Shown here: in pieces, positions 9,405-16,323 of the stretch
Layout of the letters: every line of letters begins with the position of its first letter
How positions within the stretch are numbered: position 1 is the stretch's first letter
Assembly (NCBI GenBank): GCA_016873255.1
Contig: VGXR01000026.1
Span: 1 to 35,924 of the forward strand
Reading direction: 5' to 3'
DNA: 35,924 bases
From: Planctomycetota bacterium
GTDB taxonomy: Bacteria; Planctomycetota; Phycisphaerae; Phycisphaerales; SM1A02
Program-made: the position numbers and the translations under genes
Notes under the pieces: generated by a model
What the model saw: only the letters and a program-made list of their open reading frames with translations
Told to the model about the DNA's origin: nothing
The model's database searches: none

Positions 9405-9465
9405 CGTAAGTCGTTCGCGGGCAGGCGCTTGCATGCCTGATTTCGCCTTCTTTGAGGCATTTCGA

Positions 9466-9471
9466 TACACT
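9466..9471 (+). promoter_or_regulatory. -10-like hexamer TACACT for folC
   Basis: TACACT lies 9 bases before the ATG at 9481. It supports the start at 9481 rather than the in-frame ATG at 9433, which would lie upstream of the promoter. Confidence 0.5.
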
Positions 9472-9480
9472 GCCGGGGCT

Positions 9481-11136
9481 ATGCCAAAGGTGACCCCAGC
9501 CGGTGCCGCGCGCGCCGGATCGAAGACCGTGGCCAAGGCCTCCCCCGCCAAGTCGAAGACCGCTTCCAAGCCCGCGGCGAAGGCCCCGGCAGCGAAGTCC
9601 GCGCCCTCCAAGCCGCAGCAATCCAAGCCCGCGCCGGCGAAGGCCGCTTCCCCCGCGCCGGCGAAGGCCGCTTCCCCCGCGACGCGCCAGGCCATGCCCC
9701 CCGCCAAGCCCGGCGCCGTCCGGCCGGCGGCGTCCGCGGCCGCGCGTGCCGCCACGGTGACCGAGCCCAAGCCCGCGGTCCACGAGGTGCCCAAGGCGTC
9801 GGAGATCACCACGCTGGCCGTCGCGGCGCGCTACCTGTCGTCGCGCCCGGACCTCGAGCGGCAGCGGTCGCTGAGGTACTCGGAGCAGGTCTTCAAGCTC
9901 GACCGCATGCGCAAGCTCATGGACCTCCTGGGCAACCCGCAGGACCGCGTGAAGACCGTGCACGTGGCCGGCACCAACGGCAAGGGCAGCACGGTCTCCA
10001 TGATCGCGTCCATGCTGCGCAGCTCGGGCTACGCCGTGGGCGTCTACACCAGCCCGCACCTGATCGACCTGCGCGAGCGCGTGCAGATCGACGGCAACCC
10101 GATCGGCAAGTCGGACTTCGTCGACACCGTCCGTGACGTGGCCAAGGCGGCCGAGAGGCTCGGCGAGCAGCCGACCTTCTTCGAGCTGACGACCGCCGTC
10201 GCGTTCGTGCACTTCGAGCGCCAGGCGGTCGACATCGCGGTCATCGAGGTCGGTCTCGGCGGCCGCCTCGATGCCACCAACGTCATCACGCCGCTCGTGA
10301 GCGTCGTCACGGCGATCGACATCGACCACGCCAAGCTGCTCGGCGCCACCAAGGCGCTGATCGCCCGCGAGAAGGCGGGCATCTTCAAGAAGGGCGTCCC
10401 GGCGCTCTTCTTCGAGCAGGATGCCGAGATCGACGCGGTGATGCGCGAGTGCGCGCAGGCCGCTGGCGCCGAGCTGCGCATCGTCAACAAGGACATCGAG
10501 TTCTCGAGCCGCTTCTGCGTGACGCCCGACCTCGGCCCGCATACGCGAGTGTGCATGTACACCCGGTCGAGCCGCCTCGAGCACGTGCCCGTGCCGCTTC
10601 CCGGCGAGCACCAGGCGATCAACTGCGGGCTCGCGCTCGCGGCGGTGGATGCGCTGAAGGCGTTCGGCTTCGAGCTGCCCGAGGACAAGCTCACTGCCGG
10701 CCTCGCCGCCACCAAGGTGCCCGGCCGCATGGAGCTGGTCTCGCACCGCCCGCGCATCCTCTGCGACGGCGCGCACAACCCCGCCGCCATGAACGCGCTC
10801 ATGCGCTGCGTCGGCGCGCACGTGCCCTACGACAGCATGGTGTGCGTCTTCGGCTGCTGCTCGGACAAGGACGTCGCCGAGATGATCGACAAGGTCAACC
10901 TCGGCGCGGACAAGGTCATCTTCACGCGCTCCGCCAACACCCCGCGCGCCACCAGCCCCGAGGACCTGCAGAAGCTCTTCCAGGAGCGCTCCGGCAAGAT
11001 GAGCCAGATCGCCCGCAGCGTGCCCGAGGCCATCGAGATGGCCATCCGGGGGGTCAGCCGCGAGGACCTGATCTGCGTGACGGGCAGCTTCTACGTGGTG
11101 GGCGAGGCCCTCAAGTACCTGCAGGAACGGAAGTGA
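9481..11136 (+). CDS. folC: Folylpolyglutamate synthase/dihydrofolate synthase with long N-terminal disordered extension
   Basis: This 551-residue protein ligates glutamate to (dihydro)pteroate or folates. The Mur-ligase-type P-loop is HVAGTNGKGSTVS (161-173), followed by SPHLIDLRERVQIDG (FolC signature), FFELTTAVAFVHF, VEVGLGGRLDATNVI, IDHAKLLG, KAGIFKKGVPA and LCDGAHNPAAM, all in family order. The enzyme core is normal, but residues 1-95 are an Ala/Lys/Pro/Ser-rich low-complexity extension not found in typical FolC (about 420-450 residues). It includes a perfect 24-base tandem repeat. The start at 9481 was chosen over the in-frame ATG at 9433 because TACACT lies 9 bases upstream of it. The gene is followed by a strong hairpin terminator. 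The gene is monocistronic, and no other folate gene is adjacent (pabB lies at 22930). Confidence 0.9.
   Translation: MPKVTPAGAARAGSKTVAKASPAKSKTASKPAAKAPAAKSAPSKPQQSKPAPAKAASPAPAKAASPATRQAMPPAKPGAVRPAASAAARAATVTEPKPAVHEVPKASEITTLAVAARYLSSRPDLERQRSLRYSEQVFKLDRMRKLMDLLGNPQDRVKTVHVAGTNGKGSTVSMIASMLRSSGYAVGVYTSPHLIDLRERVQIDGNPIGKSDFVDTVRDVAKAAERLGEQPTFFELTTAVAFVHFERQAVDIAVIEVGLGGRLDATNVITPLVSVVTAIDIDHAKLLGATKALIAREKAGIFKKGVPALFFEQDAEIDAVMRECAQAAGAELRIVNKDIEFSSRFCVTPDLGPHTRVCMYTRSSRLEHVPVPLPGEHQAINCGLALAAVDALKAFGFELPEDKLTAGLAATKVPGRMELVSHRPRILCDGAHNPAAMNALMRCVGAHVPYDSMVCVFGCCSDKDVAEMIDKVNLGADKVIFTRSANTPRATSPEDLQKLFQERSGKMSQIARSVPEAIEMAIRGVSREDLICVTGSFYVVGEALKYLQERK
9631..9678 (+). repeat. 24-base perfect tandem duplication in folC
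   Basis: Two identical 24-base copies, 9631-9654 and 9655-9678, encode APAKAASP twice within the disordered N-terminal extension of FolC. The identity at synonymous positions suggests a recent slippage duplication. Confidence 0.85.
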
Positions 11137-11163
11137 GCCGGCCTGCGCGGCCCTGAAATGCAC

Positions 11164-11203
11164 CGGGCCGGGCGACGCTCATCGCGCCGCCCGGCCCGTC
11201 TTT
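11164..11203 (+). terminator. Rho-independent terminator after folC
   Basis: A perfect 11-base stem, CGGGCCGGGCG (11164-11174) with CGCCCGGCCCG (11188-11198), encloses a 13-base loop and is followed by TCTTT. It lies 27 bases after the folC stop and 16 bases before the stop of the convergent gene at 11219. It clearly serves folC. The minus strand lacks a good T-run after the stem. Confidence 0.85.
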
Positions 11204-11218
11204 CGGAGCTTGGTTTCC

Positions 11219-11797
11219 TCAGCGGCGTCGCCGACGCGCCGCGGTGAGCCCTGCCAGGGCGGCCAGGCTCGCGGGCCCAGGCACCGCCGAGGCGGAGAAG
11301 TCGAGGACGAAGGAGTCGCCGGGGTTCGCCACGGAGATCCCCGACAGGTCAATCGTGACCACGTTCGCGAGGCGGCTCAGGTCCTCATTGGCGAGGCCCG
11401 AAACGCCAGGGTCGGCCGAGGCGACCGAGAACGAGTCGATGTTGAAGCTCGGCGCGAACGTCACCTGCATCGAGACGCCCGGCGAGAAGGAGATCGTGGA
11501 GGCGCCCTGGAAGTCGAACGTGAACTTGATCGACGCAGCCCGTACGTCCATCGCGAAGGCGCTGTAGCCGCCGCCGGCGAAGCCTCCCGCGTAGTAGAAC
11601 TCGGTGAGCAGCGAACTGATCAGGAACGAGTTCTGGGCGAGCGATCCGCCGGAGTCGGAGAGCTGCGCGGACGCCTGGCTTCCGATGACGCTGACGAGTC
11701 CCGCATCGGCGGAACCGGCGACTGCGCAGGCGAGCACGGCAGCGACCCCGAGGGTCGCCCCGGCGCTGGCGGGCGCCGAAGGGAGAATGCGTGGCAT
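11219..11797 (-). CDS. Secreted protein with VPGP-type PEP-CTERM tail (paralogue A)
   Basis: This 192-residue exported protein has a signal peptide at residues 1-32 (ending AVAGSADA). Its C-terminus VPGPASLAALAGLTAARRRRR has the three-part PEP-CTERM layout: a Pro motif, a short hydrophobic helix and an Arg cluster. PEP-CTERM tails are recognised by exosortase and released during transit to the outer surface. The mature domain is beta-rich and polar. Its core SFLISSLLTEFYYAG ... AFAMDVRAASIKFTFDF is shared with the two genes upstream. I do not recognise the domain. The start ATG at 11797 is preceded by GAAGG with 6-base spacing. A longer in-frame start upstream would place a basic unstructured leader before the signal peptide and is rejected. 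The gene converges on folC. Confidence 0.82.
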   Translation of the reverse strand: MPRILPSAPASAGATLGVAAVLACAVAGSADAGLVSVIGSQASAQLSDSGGSLAQNSFLISSLLTEFYYAGGFAGGGYSAFAMDVRAASIKFTFDFQGASTISFSPGVSMQVTFAPSFNIDSFSVASADPGVSGLANEDLSRLANVVTIDLSGISVANPGDSFVLDFSASAVPGPASLAALAGLTAARRRRR

Positions 11798-11990
11798 GGG
11801 AAACCTTCGTTGAACGAACCGAGGGAGGGAAACGGCCGGGGAGACACACACCCGACTCGGGCCCGACGATGCCGCGGATCCCGCGGGCGGCAAGCCGGCG
11901 CGTTGCAAGAGGCCGTGATTGCGCGGTTATGAGATGTCTGCGGGTCGTTCTCGGTCGCGGCGACGGTGCCCGCGCCATTCGCAAAAGTTG

Positions 11991-12034
11991 ACGGCCCGCG
12001 CGGCGAATGTTGGGAAGGGCGCCGCGCGGGCCGT
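11991..12034 (-). terminator. Rho-independent terminator after paralogue B
   Basis: A perfect 15-base inverted repeat (ACGGCCCGCGCGGCG at 11991-12005, its complement at 12020-12034) encloses a 14-base loop. Read on the minus strand the stem is followed by CAACTTTTG, a short T-run, so it terminates the gene ending at 12075. This implies that paralogue A has its own promoter between about 11800 and 11990, which I could not pinpoint. Confidence 0.75.
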
Positions 12035-12074
12035 GCTGATGCGGGATGTGCGGCGCCCCGGGCGCCGCGGAGAT

Positions 12075-12620
12075 TCAGCGGTTCCGGATCCGGCTTAGCA
12101 GCGCCGTTGCGCTGGCCATGCCGAGCAGGGCGGAGGGCCCCGGGACAACCGTGGAGAAGCTCAGCGTGAAGGTGCCGCCCGGTGCCCCGAAGGTCACGTT
12201 CGAGGCGTTGACCGTGATGACGTTGTCGGCGACGGACAGGTCGCCCTGCGCCAGGTTGGACACGCCCGTCGTCGATGCGATCGAGACGCCGGCAAGCGTC
12301 ACCGTCGGCGAGAGCGTGAGCCGGAACTGGTTGCCCGACGGGAAGTACGTGGCAGCAAGGCCGGCGAAGTCGGCGGTGAAGGTCACCGACGTGGCGCGGA
12401 CGTCCACCGCGAACGCTGCCCACGAGCCGTTGCCGTAGTCGCGCGAGTAGTAGTACTCCGGCAGCAGGCTGCTGACGATGAAGGTGCGGCTGTCGACGGG
12501 CGTGCCTGAGGACGTCCAGCTGAAGGTGGCGGGCTGGCCCACGACGGCGGCGGCTGCGCCGGTGGAGGCAGCGGCGACGGATGCGACGCCGGCTGCGGCG
12601 ATGCGGTATGAGATGCTCAC
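12075..12620 (-). CDS. Secreted protein with VPGP-type PEP-CTERM tail (paralogue B)
   Basis: This 181-residue exported protein has a signal peptide at about 1-24 (Ala-rich, ending GAAAA) and a C-terminal tail VPGPSALLGMASATALLSRI with basic RNR end. The core TFIVSSLLPEYYYSR ... AFAVDVRATSVTFTADF aligns with its neighbours. Family and function are unknown to me; it is presumably anchored or displayed on the cell surface through exosortase sorting. The start is GTG at 12620, preceded by GGAG with a 7-base spacer. The leader GGAGTGGAAAA is identical to that of paralogue C. A strong terminator follows at 11991-12034. Confidence 0.82.
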   Translation of the reverse strand: MSISYRIAAAGVASVAAASTGAAAAVVGQPATFSWTSSGTPVDSRTFIVSSLLPEYYYSRDYGNGSWAAFAVDVRATSVTFTADFAGLAATYFPSGNQFRLTLSPTVTLAGVSIASTTGVSNLAQGDLSVADNVITVNASNVTFGAPGGTFTLSFSTVVPGPSALLGMASATALLSRIRNR

Positions 12621-12737
12621 TTTTCCACTCCCGAAACAGTCAAGCAGGCATGAAGGTGGTCCGTCCGAACGCCGTCCGGACCGAGGGGCAGGCAGGAATG
12701 CCGGCAGTGCGGTGGCAGCCGCACCGCCGGCGCGCGC

Positions 12738-13298
12738 TCATCCGCGGCGGCGTCGCGAGGGGATCGCCGCGAACGCGGACAGGATCACCAGGGCCGACGG
12801 GCCGGGGATGGCGGAGGTCGTGAAGTTGATGGTGAAGGACGCGCCGGGTGCGCTGGCGGTGATCAGTGAAGTGTCGAGCAGCAGCGTCCGCGTGCCGGAG
12901 CCGGAGACGTCCTCGAGCGCCAGCCCGGTGATGTCGTTTGACGCACCGAGTGAGAAGGAGTCGAACTGCATGGACTCCGGGATGGTCAGGGCGATGCGGG
13001 TGTTGTCGACGAAGGAGATGCTGCTCACCGAAGCAAAGTCCATCGTGATCGTCAACGACGCCGACTTGACGTCGGCGGAGAAAGCCCCGAAGCTGGCACC
13101 CGAGAAGAAAGTAGTCGAGTAATAGAACTCCGGCAGGAGGCCGCTGACGACGAAGGACTGCTCCTGGAACGTCTCGCCAGTCGTCGCGCTGTAGAAGCGA
13201 AGCGAAGAGTTTGTTCCCACGAGGCCGGCATCCGAAACGGACACCAGGCTTGCCGCGGCGAAGGCAGTCGCCACGACGAATCGATAGTTCGATTCCAT
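12738..13298 (-). CDS. Secreted protein with IPGP-type PEP-CTERM tail (paralogue C)
   Basis: This 186-residue exported protein has a signal peptide at about 1-25 (MESNYRFVVATAFAAASLVS, then VSDA). The tail IPGPSALVILSAFAAIPSRR plus RRG has the Pro motif, hydrophobic helix and Arg cluster. The core SFVVSGLLPEFYYST ... GAFSADVKSASLTITMDF matches paralogues A and B. The ATG at 13298 was chosen because GGAG lies 6 bases upstream and the signal peptide begins here. The frame extends 23 codons further upstream without export character. Gene order C-B-A on the minus strand, with intergenic gaps of 117 and 277 bases, suggests tandem duplication. The 145 bases up to leuS hold no gene; they should carry this gene's promoter, but I see no convincing hexamer. 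Confidence 0.82.
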   Translation of the reverse strand: MESNYRFVVATAFAAASLVSVSDAGLVGTNSSLRFYSATTGETFQEQSFVVSGLLPEFYYSTTFFSGASFGAFSADVKSASLTITMDFASVSSISFVDNTRIALTIPESMQFDSFSLGASNDITGLALEDVSGSGTRTLLLDTSLITASAPGASFTINFTTSAIPGPSALVILSAFAAIPSRRRRG

Positions 13299-13443
13299 TT
13301 TCCACTCCAATATTTGCAGGCTATGAGGGGTGGATCGGCCAACAGCTGGGCGATCCGCATCCATCATGGCCCGGGAACCGGCCTAGGCAAGCCAATTCCG
13401 CGCTTTTTCCTTGCGACCCCCCGGAGGAGGGGAAGGGGCGTGG

Positions 13444-16323
13444 TCAGAGCACCACGTTGACCATCCGTCCGGGGACCACGATCACCTTGCGGGGCGCCTT
13501 GCCGCCGAGGTGCGGGACCACCTGGACGTGGGCCAGGGCAATGGCCTCGACCTCGGCCGGCGAGGCCTTGGCCGGCACCAGGATGCGCGCGCGCACCTTG
13601 CCCTGCACCTGCACCGGGATCTCCACCTCGCTGTCGGTGAGCATGGCGGGGTCGAAGGCGGGCCATGGCTCGTCGATCAGCCCGCGCGCCAGCCCGAGCC
13701 GCGCGGCCATCTCGTCGGCCGCGTGCGGGGCGAATGGCCAGAGGATCCGCGCGAAGCGCAGCAGCTGGTCGCGCGTCATGCCGCCCTTCGCGGGATCAGC
13801 GAGGTCGGTCGGGCGCGTGGCCGCGTTCACCAGCTCGATCATCGCCGCGATGGCCGTGTTGAAGCTGAGGCGCTCGATGTCCTCGCCCACCTTGGCGATG
13901 GTGCGGTGCAGCAGCTTCTCGACCGTCGGGTCCGCCTCAGCGGCGAGCAGCGGCTCACCGGTGCGCTCGTCGACGGCCAGCCGCCACGCGCGCTGCAGGA
14001 AACGGAACACGCCCACGATGTCGCGGGTGTTCCATGGCTTCGACGCCTCGAGCGGGCCCATGTACATCTCGTAGAGCCGGAAGGTGTCGGCGCCGTACTC
14101 GGCGATCACGTCGTCGGGGTTCACGACGTTCCGCAGGCTCTTTGACATCTTGGCCACGATCTGCGTGACCTTCTCGCCGGTCTTGGTCTCGACGAACGTG
14201 CCCTCGCCGCGCTCCTCGACCTCGTCGACGGGCACCAGGCTCCGGTCGGCGCGCTGGAACGCGTGGCTCGTGATCAGGCCCTGGTGGAACAGCTTGCCCA
14301 TCGGCTCGGGCGTGCTGACGTGCCCGAGGTCGAACAGCACCTTGTGCCAGAACCGCGCGTACAGCAGGTGCAGCACCGCGTGCTCGCTGCCGCCCACGTA
14401 GAGGTCCACGCCGCCCGCATGGCAGGTGGCCGGGTCGTACGAGGTGGGCGCCGGCAGGCCCGCCGCCGACCTCTTCCGCGACAGCATCCAGTACCGCTCC
14501 GCCGCCGGGTCGACGAACGCGCCGCTTGTTCTCGGCGAGCAGTAGCGCAGGTAGTACCAGCAGCTGCCGGCCCAGCCGGGCATCGTGTTGGTCTCGCGCG
14601 TCACCGGCGTGCCGGGCGCGAGGATCGCCGGGTCCACGCCCGCGGCGCCGGCGGTCGTGTGCACCCACTCGCGCGCCTTGGCGAGCGGCGGCTGCGGCGT
14701 GTCGCTCTCGACCGGGTTGTAGTCGGCGAGCGGCGGCAGCCGCACGGGAAGCGCGCCGCCGCCGACCGGGTAGTGGTTTCCTTCCGCGTCGAACACCACC
14801 GGGAACGGCTCGCCCCAGTACCGCTGCCGGCTGAAGAGCCAGTCGCGCAGGCGGTAGTTGACGCGCAGCGCTCCGATGCCGCGCGCCTCCAGCCACGCAA
14901 TCACCGCGCGCTTGGCGTCGGCGGTGGCAAGCCCATCGATCGACAGCCCGGACGCCGCGCTCGAGCTGTTGACCGCTCTCCCCTCGCCGCCGGTGGCCGC
15001 CTCGCCCGTCCACGCGGTGCCGGCCACGTCGACCACCTGCACCACGGGCAGCGCGAACTCGCGCGCGAACTCGAAGTCGCGCTCGTCATGCGCCGGCACC
15101 GCCATGATGGCACCGGTGCCGTAGCCCATGAGCACGTAGTCGGCGGTCCACACCGGGATCCGCGCGCCCGTGGCGGGATTCACGGCGAGCAGGCCCGTGG
15201 CCACGCCGGTCTTCTTCTTGGATTCCTGGCGATCGACGTCGGAGCGGTTGCGCGCCCACGCCACGTACTCGGCGAGCGCCGCGTTCCCGCCGCGCCCGGC
15301 CGCGCGCTGCACCAGCGGGTGCTCCGGCGCCACCACCATGTACGTGGCGCCGAACAGCGTGTCCGGGCGCGTCGTGAAGACCGTGAGCGGCTCGGCCTCG
15401 CCCTCGACCGCGAAGCGGATCTCCGCGCCTTCGCTGCGGCCGATCCACTCGGTCTGCATCGTGCGCGTCGACTCCGGCCAGTCCACCAGCGCGAGGTCCG
15501 CGAGCAGCCGGTCGGCGTAGGCGGTGATGCGGAACATCCACTGCTTCAGCGGCATCCGCACCACGGGGTGGCCGCCGCGCTCGCTCCGCCCGTCGATCAC
15601 CTCCTCGTTGGCGAGCACGGTGCCGAGCTTCGGGCACCAGTTCACGGTCTGCTCGCCGAGGTACGCCAGCCGGAACCCGTCGAGGTGCGCCTGGCGCTCG
15701 CGCCGGCTGCACGCGCTCCAGCGCCGGCGTTCGCCGCCGGCCACCTCGACCTCGCGGTCCTCGCGTGCGAGCGCGGCCTCGAGCTCGGCGATCGGCCGCG
15801 CCGCGCCGGCCCTGGGGTCGAACCAGCTGCCGTATGCCAGCAGCCAGATCCACTGCGTCCACCGGTAGTAGTCGGGGTCGATGGTCGCGAACTCGCGCGA
15901 CCAGTCGTACATGAACCCGAAGCGCTTCAGCTGCCGCCGGAAGTTGTCGATCGCCTTGGTCGTGGTGACCTCGGGGTGCACGCCGGTCTGGATGGCGTAC
16001 TGCTCCGCGGGAAGGCCGAACGCGTCCCAGCCCATCGGGTGCAGGACGTTGAAGCCCTTCATCCGCTTGTAGCGGCAGACGATGTCGGTGGCCGTGTAGC
16101 CCTCGGGGTGGCCCACGTGCAGGCCGGCGCCCGACGGGTACGGGAACATGTCGAGGCAGTAGAACTTGGGCTTCGACGCGTCGAACCCGGGCTCCCCGGG
16201 GTTCGGCTGGCGGAACCCGCGCCCCGCGGCCTGCTCGGACTCGAGCCGCGCCTGCCAGCGTTCCTCGATGGCGTTGGCGAACGGCGCGGTGTAGCGGAAC
16301 GGGTGCTCGTTCGGCTCGGTCAT
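13444..16323 (-). CDS. leuS: Leucyl-tRNA synthetase
   Basis: This 959-residue class I synthetase charges tRNA-Leu. Visible are MFPYPSGAGLHVGHPEGYTA, with the HIGH-equivalent HVGH at 69-72, HPMGWDAFGLPAEQYA, the editing domain in the middle (TTRPDTLFGATYMVVAPEHP, MAVPAHDERDFEFA), NTMPGWAGSCWYYLRY, and the KMSKS loop at 725-729 followed by RNVVNPDDVI. This is the bacterial LeuS architecture with the CP1 editing domain; the length is slightly above the roughly 860 of E. coli. The region between the editing motifs and the KMSKS loop carries extra segments (for example SSAASGLSIDGLATADAKRA) common in Phycisphaerae-like relatives (inference). The ATG at 16323 has TACGCT 9 bases upstream on the minus strand and no Shine-Dalgarno. 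Confidence 0.96.
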   Translation of the reverse strand: MTEPNEHPFRYTAPFANAIEERWQARLESEQAAGRGFRQPNPGEPGFDASKPKFYCLDMFPYPSGAGLHVGHPEGYTATDIVCRYKRMKGFNVLHPMGWDAFGLPAEQYAIQTGVHPEVTTTKAIDNFRRQLKRFGFMYDWSREFATIDPDYYRWTQWIWLLAYGSWFDPRAGAARPIAELEAALAREDREVEVAGGERRRWSACSRRERQAHLDGFRLAYLGEQTVNWCPKLGTVLANEEVIDGRSERGGHPVVRMPLKQWMFRITAYADRLLADLALVDWPESTRTMQTEWIGRSEGAEIRFAVEGEAEPLTVFTTRPDTLFGATYMVVAPEHPLVQRAAGRGGNAALAEYVAWARNRSDVDRQESKKKTGVATGLLAVNPATGARIPVWTADYVLMGYGTGAIMAVPAHDERDFEFAREFALPVVQVVDVAGTAWTGEAATGGEGRAVNSSSAASGLSIDGLATADAKRAVIAWLEARGIGALRVNYRLRDWLFSRQRYWGEPFPVVFDAEGNHYPVGGGALPVRLPPLADYNPVESDTPQPPLAKAREWVHTTAGAAGVDPAILAPGTPVTRETNTMPGWAGSCWYYLRYCSPRTSGAFVDPAAERYWMLSRKRSAAGLPAPTSYDPATCHAGGVDLYVGGSEHAVLHLLYARFWHKVLFDLGHVSTPEPMGKLFHQGLITSHAFQRADRSLVPVDEVEERGEGTFVETKTGEKVTQIVAKMSKSLRNVVNPDDVIAEYGADTFRLYEMYMGPLEASKPWNTRDIVGVFRFLQRAWRLAVDERTGEPLLAAEADPTVEKLLHRTIAKVGEDIERLSFNTAIAAMIELVNAATRPTDLADPAKGGMTRDQLLRFARILWPFAPHAADEMAARLGLARGLIDEPWPAFDPAMLTDSEVEIPVQVQGKVRARILVPAKASPAEVEAIALAHVQVVPHLGGKAPRKVIVVPGRMVNVVL

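Follow-up and report, generated by a model that had tools for sequence, protein, structure and literature searches.

Tandem, probably secreted proteins with Pro-Gly-Pro C-terminal tails and an unnamed core domain in a member of the Phycisphaerales

In the 35,924-nucleotide stretch of contig VGXR01000026.1 (assembly GCA_016873255.1, Planctomycetota bacterium, Phycisphaerales, SM1A02; hereafter referred to as the window), three adjacent genes on the minus strand, A, B and C, encode proteins with a likely signal peptide, a common core of about 135 residues and a C-terminal tail in which a Pro-Gly-Pro motif (PGP) is followed by a hydrophobic stretch and a basic, arginine-rich cluster at the end of the protein. 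The core defines a real and lineage-restricted family that is apparently unnamed, and the PGP tail is best seen, from its sequence, as a local form of a PEP-CTERM-like signal that lacks the glutamate. The three products are probably exosortase-processed matrix or surface proteins that would help to hold exopolysaccharide on the cell. Exosortase substrates are numerous, and for only a few of them has a function or structure been established. An unnamed family confidently predicted to form a beta-sandwich, a genome-wide Glu-less signal and one detected exosortase together constitute a natural test of the residues that exosortases need, and the array offers an example, at a single place in the chromosome, of the way in which exosortase-type surface proteins gain copies and diverge.

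The paralogues and their core domain

A preliminary description of this DNA, made from the sequence alone, had identified three adjacent minus-strand paralogues, and was right as to their coordinates, sizes and motifs. The genes and their tails are as follows.

12738..13298, minus strand: paralogue A, 186 amino acids, ATG start; likely signal peptide, core and IPGP tail
12075..12620, minus strand: paralogue B, 181 amino acids, GTG start; likely signal peptide, core and VPGP tail; the protein modelled
11219..11797, minus strand: paralogue C, 192 amino acids, ATG start; likely signal peptide, core and VPGP tail
12741..12809, minus strand: tail of A, last 23 residues, IPGPSALVILSAFAAIPSRRRRG
12078..12146, minus strand: tail of B, last 23 residues, VPGPSALLGMASATALLSRIRNR
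11222..11284, minus strand: tail of C, last 21 residues, VPGPASLAALAGLTAARRRRR

Judged by their sequence similarity, which is far beyond chance (pairwise BLASTP E values of 7e-21, 5e-25 and 9e-26, with 34-40% identity over the aligned part and 32.0-37.2% end to end), A, B and C are paralogues. The likely signal peptide is the hydrophobic N-terminus that each of them displays, recognised by eye and with a crude hydrophobicity script. Both motif blocks of the core pattern proposed earlier are present in all three proteins, but much of that pattern is specific to them, because few residues are invariant across the 16 aligned family members (S50, E55, D73, D84, P160, P162 and R179, in B numbering). 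The first four of these are the core positions that never vary. In the genome itself, the full core was detected in this array alone; three further matches (E 0.05-1.4) span the C-terminal part alone.

The absence of a named family for the core was borne out. No Pfam or NCBIfam family reached its cut-off for A, B or C, eight cores stripped of their tails (A, B, four full members and two remote members, C not being among them) gave one chance match only (E 0.26), and a sequence search of the PDB yielded no relative of the core (best E 0.57). The structure of the mature domain was predicted with AlphaFold2 from 13 aligned members, with a predicted local distance difference test score (pLDDT) of 83.8 for the whole of B, and of 93.4 for the core alone (predicted template modelling score 0.85). 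The predicted core has ten strands arranged as a beta-sandwich, and the whole-protein model adds a separate C-terminal helix at residues 162-180 (block pLDDT 65 and 76). Foldseek returned nothing at E ≤ 0.001 from the PDB for either the whole-protein or the core model, or from a viral library for the whole-protein model. The best VIA-align match was to the beta-domain of GH98 enzymes (Z 5.9, root-mean-square deviation 3.9, 97 aligned; 5.6, 4.0 and 96, respectively, with the core model), followed by the Epf adhesin, cohesins and CBM3, with all rows below Z 6. These modules have the same general two-sheet beta arrangement (Z 4.0-5.9) at 2-20% identity, and such Z values are in the unspecific range that common beta-sandwich arrangements give.

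The C-terminal signal and the exosortase

The closest known system is that of PEP-CTERM proteins and exosortase (EpsH; TIGR02595, PF07589, PF09721; Haft 2006). In that paper (PMC1569441), PEP-CTERM proteins are proposed to be cut at the motif by EpsH en route into the exopolysaccharide. The window proteins resemble them in their tripartite C-terminal signal and probably in having a signal peptide, and the tails of A, B and C all end in a hydrophobic helix and a terminal basic cluster, as exosortase substrates in the wide sense do. Nevertheless, TIGR02595 and PF07589 matched none of the three window proteins at E ≤ 10. Elsewhere in the core family, PF07589 matched one of the 16 members (E 0.00079), and two PAP-tailed members reached the TIGR02595 cut-off of 16 (G030, 16.0; G120, 17.0).

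A profile of the tail gave 51 matches at E ≤ 10 in the genome, of which 46 were read out together with B, five weak or contig-edge matches being excluded. These 47 rows correspond to 46 open reading frames (ORFs), some of them cut by contig ends, and a P-x-P motif was found in 45 of the 46. PAPG accounted for 41 of the 47 rows and PGP for five, namely A, B, C and two ORFs with no core match; the first proline was absent from the remaining row. The expectation that the core would always carry a PGP tail did not hold, the motif being PGP in six of the 16 core-family members, PAP in six, PTP in three and PSP in one. A remote core member from another family of the order (G070) had a canonical IPEP tail. 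In a survey of 49 tail loci of relatives, ranked by similarity to PAP- and PGP-rich profiles so that its counts are biased, PEP was found at none of the 34 loci from the same taxonomic family (PAP, PGP, PSP and PTP were seen), and at six of the 15 from other families (G040, G053, G055, G060 and G070), with PTP at four and PAP at two; the last three had no true tail (over the 49 rows, two were tail-less and L136 was a false match of the regular expression). The loss of the glutamate thus extends beyond the organism's own family, and PGP, a minority beside the genome-wide PAPG and the PEP of other families, appears to be a sub-variant. With PEP tails present in certain families of the order and absent from all 34 own-family loci of this sample, the shift of the signal could be mapped against an exosortase tree.

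Two of the tailed ORFs of the genome have features of their own. One (C34:19384) encodes a VPAPG-tailed protein that contains a lamin tail domain (PF00932, E 1.1e-13). The other, an ORF covering C67:8571-9242, is a 704-amino-acid frame holding two tails; the first of them (RRRRR) is followed immediately by another stretch resembling a signal peptide and another tailed protein. It may be an in-frame fusion of two tandem genes, or a sequence error.

As the preliminary description had anticipated, the genome encodes an exosortase. The one detected (C41:19231-20022; PF09721, E 7e-44) exceeds the cut-offs of the general models TIGR02602 (115.1 vs 105.55) and TIGR04178 (57.4 vs 23), and passes no named-subtype model of NCBIfam. 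It contains the motifs C-S-G, N-V-L-R and H-S-M-V-G, corresponding to the C-x-G, N-x-x-R and H-x-x-x-G motifs named in PMC1569441. Its neighbours include an EpsI-like DUF3485 protein and an SLBB export protein, both above Pfam cut-offs, together with a TPR (PrsT-like) protein and a chain-length/tyrosine-kinase type protein, both below NCBIfam cut-offs, and sugar genes. The exosortase belongs to an exopolysaccharide locus within C41:8000-23591, and exosortase and exopolysaccharide genes thus occur in the same genome as the tails.

The likeness to the PEP-CTERM system extends to many substrates per genome, few recognisable domains, lineage-wise expansion of paralogues, and an exosortase within an exopolysaccharide locus with EpsI-like and TPR proteins. 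The differences are PGP (PAPG genome-wide) in place of PEP, window tails that pass no model, and an exosortase of no named subtype. By analogy, then, the window proteins would work like PEP-CTERM proteins, yet they fail the strict PEP-CTERM definition. VPLPA-CTERM/XrtD and VPDSG-CTERM/XrtC are likewise Glu-less variants of the same sorting principle, with exosortases of their own, but differ in motif, and the exosortase found here is far below their cut-offs; the VPLPA-CTERM model scored 14.6 of the required 25.35 bits, with C only.

Distribution and divergence of the array

The narrow range foreseen for the family was confirmed. Of the genomes searched at E ≤ 1e-7, members were present in 13 of 400 from the order, 13 of 181 from the taxonomic family and one of 392 drawn from the phylum, which was the organism's own; the best eight candidates per genome were scored for the order and the phylum, and the best 19 for the taxonomic family, so weak members can be missed. 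Full members occur in the genus itself (three in this genome, three in G012, and in G010, G003 and G009) and in one sister genus (G030, G120 and G220, and two in tandem in each of G206 and G338, the G323 member being partial). G004 (own genus; core E 7e-5), G766 (a third genus; 2.5e-10) and G070 (another family; 5e-6) have weak remote members, at a search size fixed at 1000; in G004 and G070 the match extends over only part of the core (model positions 46-136 for G070). On these sequence matches, the core family is rare, with full members in two genera and weak members in two more.

Named genomes scanned with one query yielded no family member, although the organism's own record may be outside that scan. 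Another query matched six contigs from metagenome-assembled genomes, and 'pond' is in the title of two. One of the six is labelled Phycisphaerae and the rest are assigned to Planctomycetaceae, Singulisphaera, Bacteroidia or uncultured bacterium, such bin labels being loose. Other sample names resemble those of lakes. No relatives were found among viral contigs with one query. In literature on PEP-CTERM and exosortase and on Planctomycetes and Phycisphaerae, searched by title and the start of the abstract and with subscription papers mostly outside the search, neither the tail nor the family was found; in PMC12078418, the relevant terms were confined to the reference list.

The array lies between two convergent genes, in the same order as in G012, which has three family genes of its own at the same junction.

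13444..16323, minus strand: leuS, leucyl-tRNA synthetase, flanking
9433..11136, plus strand: gene with Mur-ligase domains (Pfam), flanking, which we take to be folC
13299..13398, minus strand: the 100 bases upstream of A, resembling the same place in G012; TTGGAGTGGAAA precedes the start codon

Between this genome and G012, identity is 88-89% over the parts of leuS and folC that were compared, but 33.7, 43.3 and 45.7% for the positional counterparts of A, B and C, respectively. The upstream DNA of A (60.6%; shuffled 29.6, standard deviation 9.0) and of C (52.5%; shuffled 32.2, standard deviation 8.6) is recognisably common to G012, and that of B less so (41.2%). As the upstream region of B also matches G012_a, the first of the G012 genes (57.7%), orthology may not be one-to-one. 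The coding DNA is 48.8, 58.6 and 57.3% identical for A, B and C, respectively, and only that of A is below its upstream region. The counterpart in B of the TTGGAGTGGAAA element is CGGGAGTGGAAAA. A promoter scan of 11100-13500 revealed no sigma-70-like site. A regulon signal was considered for GGGAGTGGAAAA, which stands before the start codons of both B and G012_a and, in a shifted position, before that of A, and was rejected: with up to three mismatches, it was found before only B and one other of the 47 tailed-ORF rows (two mismatches), in a search of the 22 bases before candidate starts that missed A and was therefore not fully sensitive.

Relative to leuS, the pairs formed with G012 differ 4.8-5.9 times as much, above nine of 11 sister-genus comparisons (3.0-12.9, nine of them 3.0-4.5) and above the three among G003, G009 and G010 (0.8-2.3), the C-terminal part of leuS being used in the own genus and the N-terminal part in the sister genus. 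Relative to folC, the corresponding values are 4.7-5.7, 6.0-29.9 (n = 11) and 0.7-6.6; all these ratios are of uncorrected differences, so that the most diverged pairs are understated. By leuS, then, the pairs with G012 rank among the fast ones, and by folC they are slow compared with the sister genus. As their folC-relative change is slower than in all 11 sister-genus comparisons, fast change is a trait of the family. The ratio of nonsynonymous to synonymous change (dN/dS) was 0.08-0.35 in 11 closer pairs, as whole-gene averages in which single selected sites may hide. Ratios of 0.74-0.86 for the pairs with G012 say little, since their synonymous sites approach saturation, with a codon identity at conserved positions that is near the level of random codon choice (z -0.1, 2.2 and 1.6, compared with 3.9 for leuS and 5.1 for folC). 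These ratios were accordingly dropped as evidence of positive selection, and the near-saturation implies that the copies may predate the species split. In our view these data indicate fast evolution with purifying constraint on average and duplications of uncertain age; they fall short of proving diversifying selection.

The content of the leuS-folC junction differs among species of the genus. Among 12 same-genus genomes with a folC match, both genes were located in 11, no leuS being present within the stretch examined in G007. The junction is 19-22 bp long in G003, G008, G009 and G010, 314 bp in G013 and 505 bp in G005. In G001, G002, G004, G006 and G011 it measures about 840-894 bp and contains a Y1-transposase-like ORF. 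PF01797 matched two of these five ORFs, and the other three were judged by eye. The five ORFs are 242-282 codons from stop to stop, and of the RAYT type by their look.

Other tandem arrays of tailed paralogues occur in the genome. C92 and C69 each hold three copies (56-65% and 31-37% identical, respectively), C8 holds two or three, and C67, C23 and C15 have repeat-like sets. They are PAPG-tailed and belong to several unrelated families. Arrays of the C92 type were also found in relatives, with six copies in G010 (C16) and five in G012 (C88, two of them partial matches).

Proposed role and alternative explanations

Under the reading that we favour, the one detected exosortase would process the PGP tails, and the freed beta-sandwich of about 135 residues would leave the cell with the exopolysaccharide, as a structural or glycan-binding matrix component that keeps polysaccharide on the cell. 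The array would have arisen by tandem duplication, its copies drifting fast to yield three related but different matrix proteins. The polysaccharide-holding step we infer by analogy with PepA of Aquincola, itself a small secreted PEP-CTERM protein, whose overexpression increased bound polysaccharide, decreased soluble polysaccharide and restored flocs, as reported in PMC9850573. A C-type lectin domain protein (PF00059, E 1.6e-12; L176, about 872-1420) with a PAPGA tail of the same type adjoins the remote family member of G766; this one case fits a glycan-related role.

Homology of the core to PepA was considered and set aside. The PepA model NF033554 was weakly matched by five of the 16 members, all from the sister genus (G030, G120, G206, G220 and G338; best E 3.9e-6, 26.9 bits vs a cut-off of 80), and by no window protein. 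The match ran in line from about core residue 65-71 to the tail, over about 110 residues, and was gone once the tail was removed from G030 and G338; as none of the eight tail-less cores matched (a set including these two of the five matching members, with C and the other three outside it), it was not used as evidence on the core. A remote link of the second half of the core to PepA is nonetheless conceivable from the sequences.

Several observations weigh against processing by exosortase and a polysaccharide-holding role. The near-invariant Pro-Glu-Pro lacks its glutamate, with PGP in all three window proteins, and the tails of A, B and C pass no NCBIfam or Pfam tail model. One relative, G030, also passes the MYXO-CTERM model TIGR03382 (16.3 over 15.85). 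The proposed co-occurrence with an exosortase held for 10 of the 13 family-bearing genomes (G004 having only a 115-residue piece), but none was found in the family-bearing G003, G012 and G323 (81-88% complete). No fold match indicates sugar binding (best VIA-align Z 5.9). In the PepA study (PMC9850573), flocculation was not rescued by several further PEP-CTERM genes, so the analogy with PepA cannot be taken for granted in any one family.

The features of the tail could alternatively be explained if it were a permanent inner-membrane anchor, or were cut by another protease, the proteins remaining periplasmic. The missing glutamate, the failure of the tail models and the MYXO-CTERM match of G030 would suit this explanation. 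That match is on the helix and arginine part only, from model position 7. MYXO-CTERM tails have a Cys signature motif before the helix. The tails of A, B and C have no cysteine (rhombosortase and myxosortase were not searched for), and the genome has an intact exosortase with exopolysaccharide genes and dozens of tails with a common motif, making an anchor or another protease improbable. The preliminary description had also suggested a local diversifying locus, and the array is indeed tandem, lineage-specific and fast-changing. The proteins might be exposed on the surface and subject to diversifying selection at this locus, for example as phage receptors or as variants for kin recognition or adhesion, in which case the array would serve as a cassette of alternative forms. 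The low identity of the counterparts in G012 between well-conserved flanking genes, the upstream regions of A and C that are still alike, the leuS-relative excess and the variable junction all point in this direction. Against it, the sister genus is fast too, and faster by folC, dN/dS is low in all 11 closer pairs, the coding DNA of both B and C is at least as similar between the genomes as the DNA upstream of them, synonymous sites are near saturation, the upstream region of B also matches G012_a, and tandem arrays occur elsewhere in the genome. We consider such selection rather unlikely.

A broader proposal, in which loss of the glutamate throughout a clade of planctomycetes (PEP to PAP, with PGP, PTP and PSP as offshoots) was accompanied by an exosortase of unnamed type, the signal serving to display fast-changing tandem sets of small beta-sandwich proteins, this array among them, as a species-specific surface coat under local diversifying selection, is similarly doubtful. 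Finally, the array could be a chance insertion of drifting, near-neutral genes at a convergent junction that tolerates inserts, as might be imagined from same-genus junctions of 19-22 bp in four of the 12 genomes and with a Y1-transposase-like ORF in five; this is very improbable, given dN/dS values below 0.4 in relatives, residues common to all 16 members, and tails kept in all 16.

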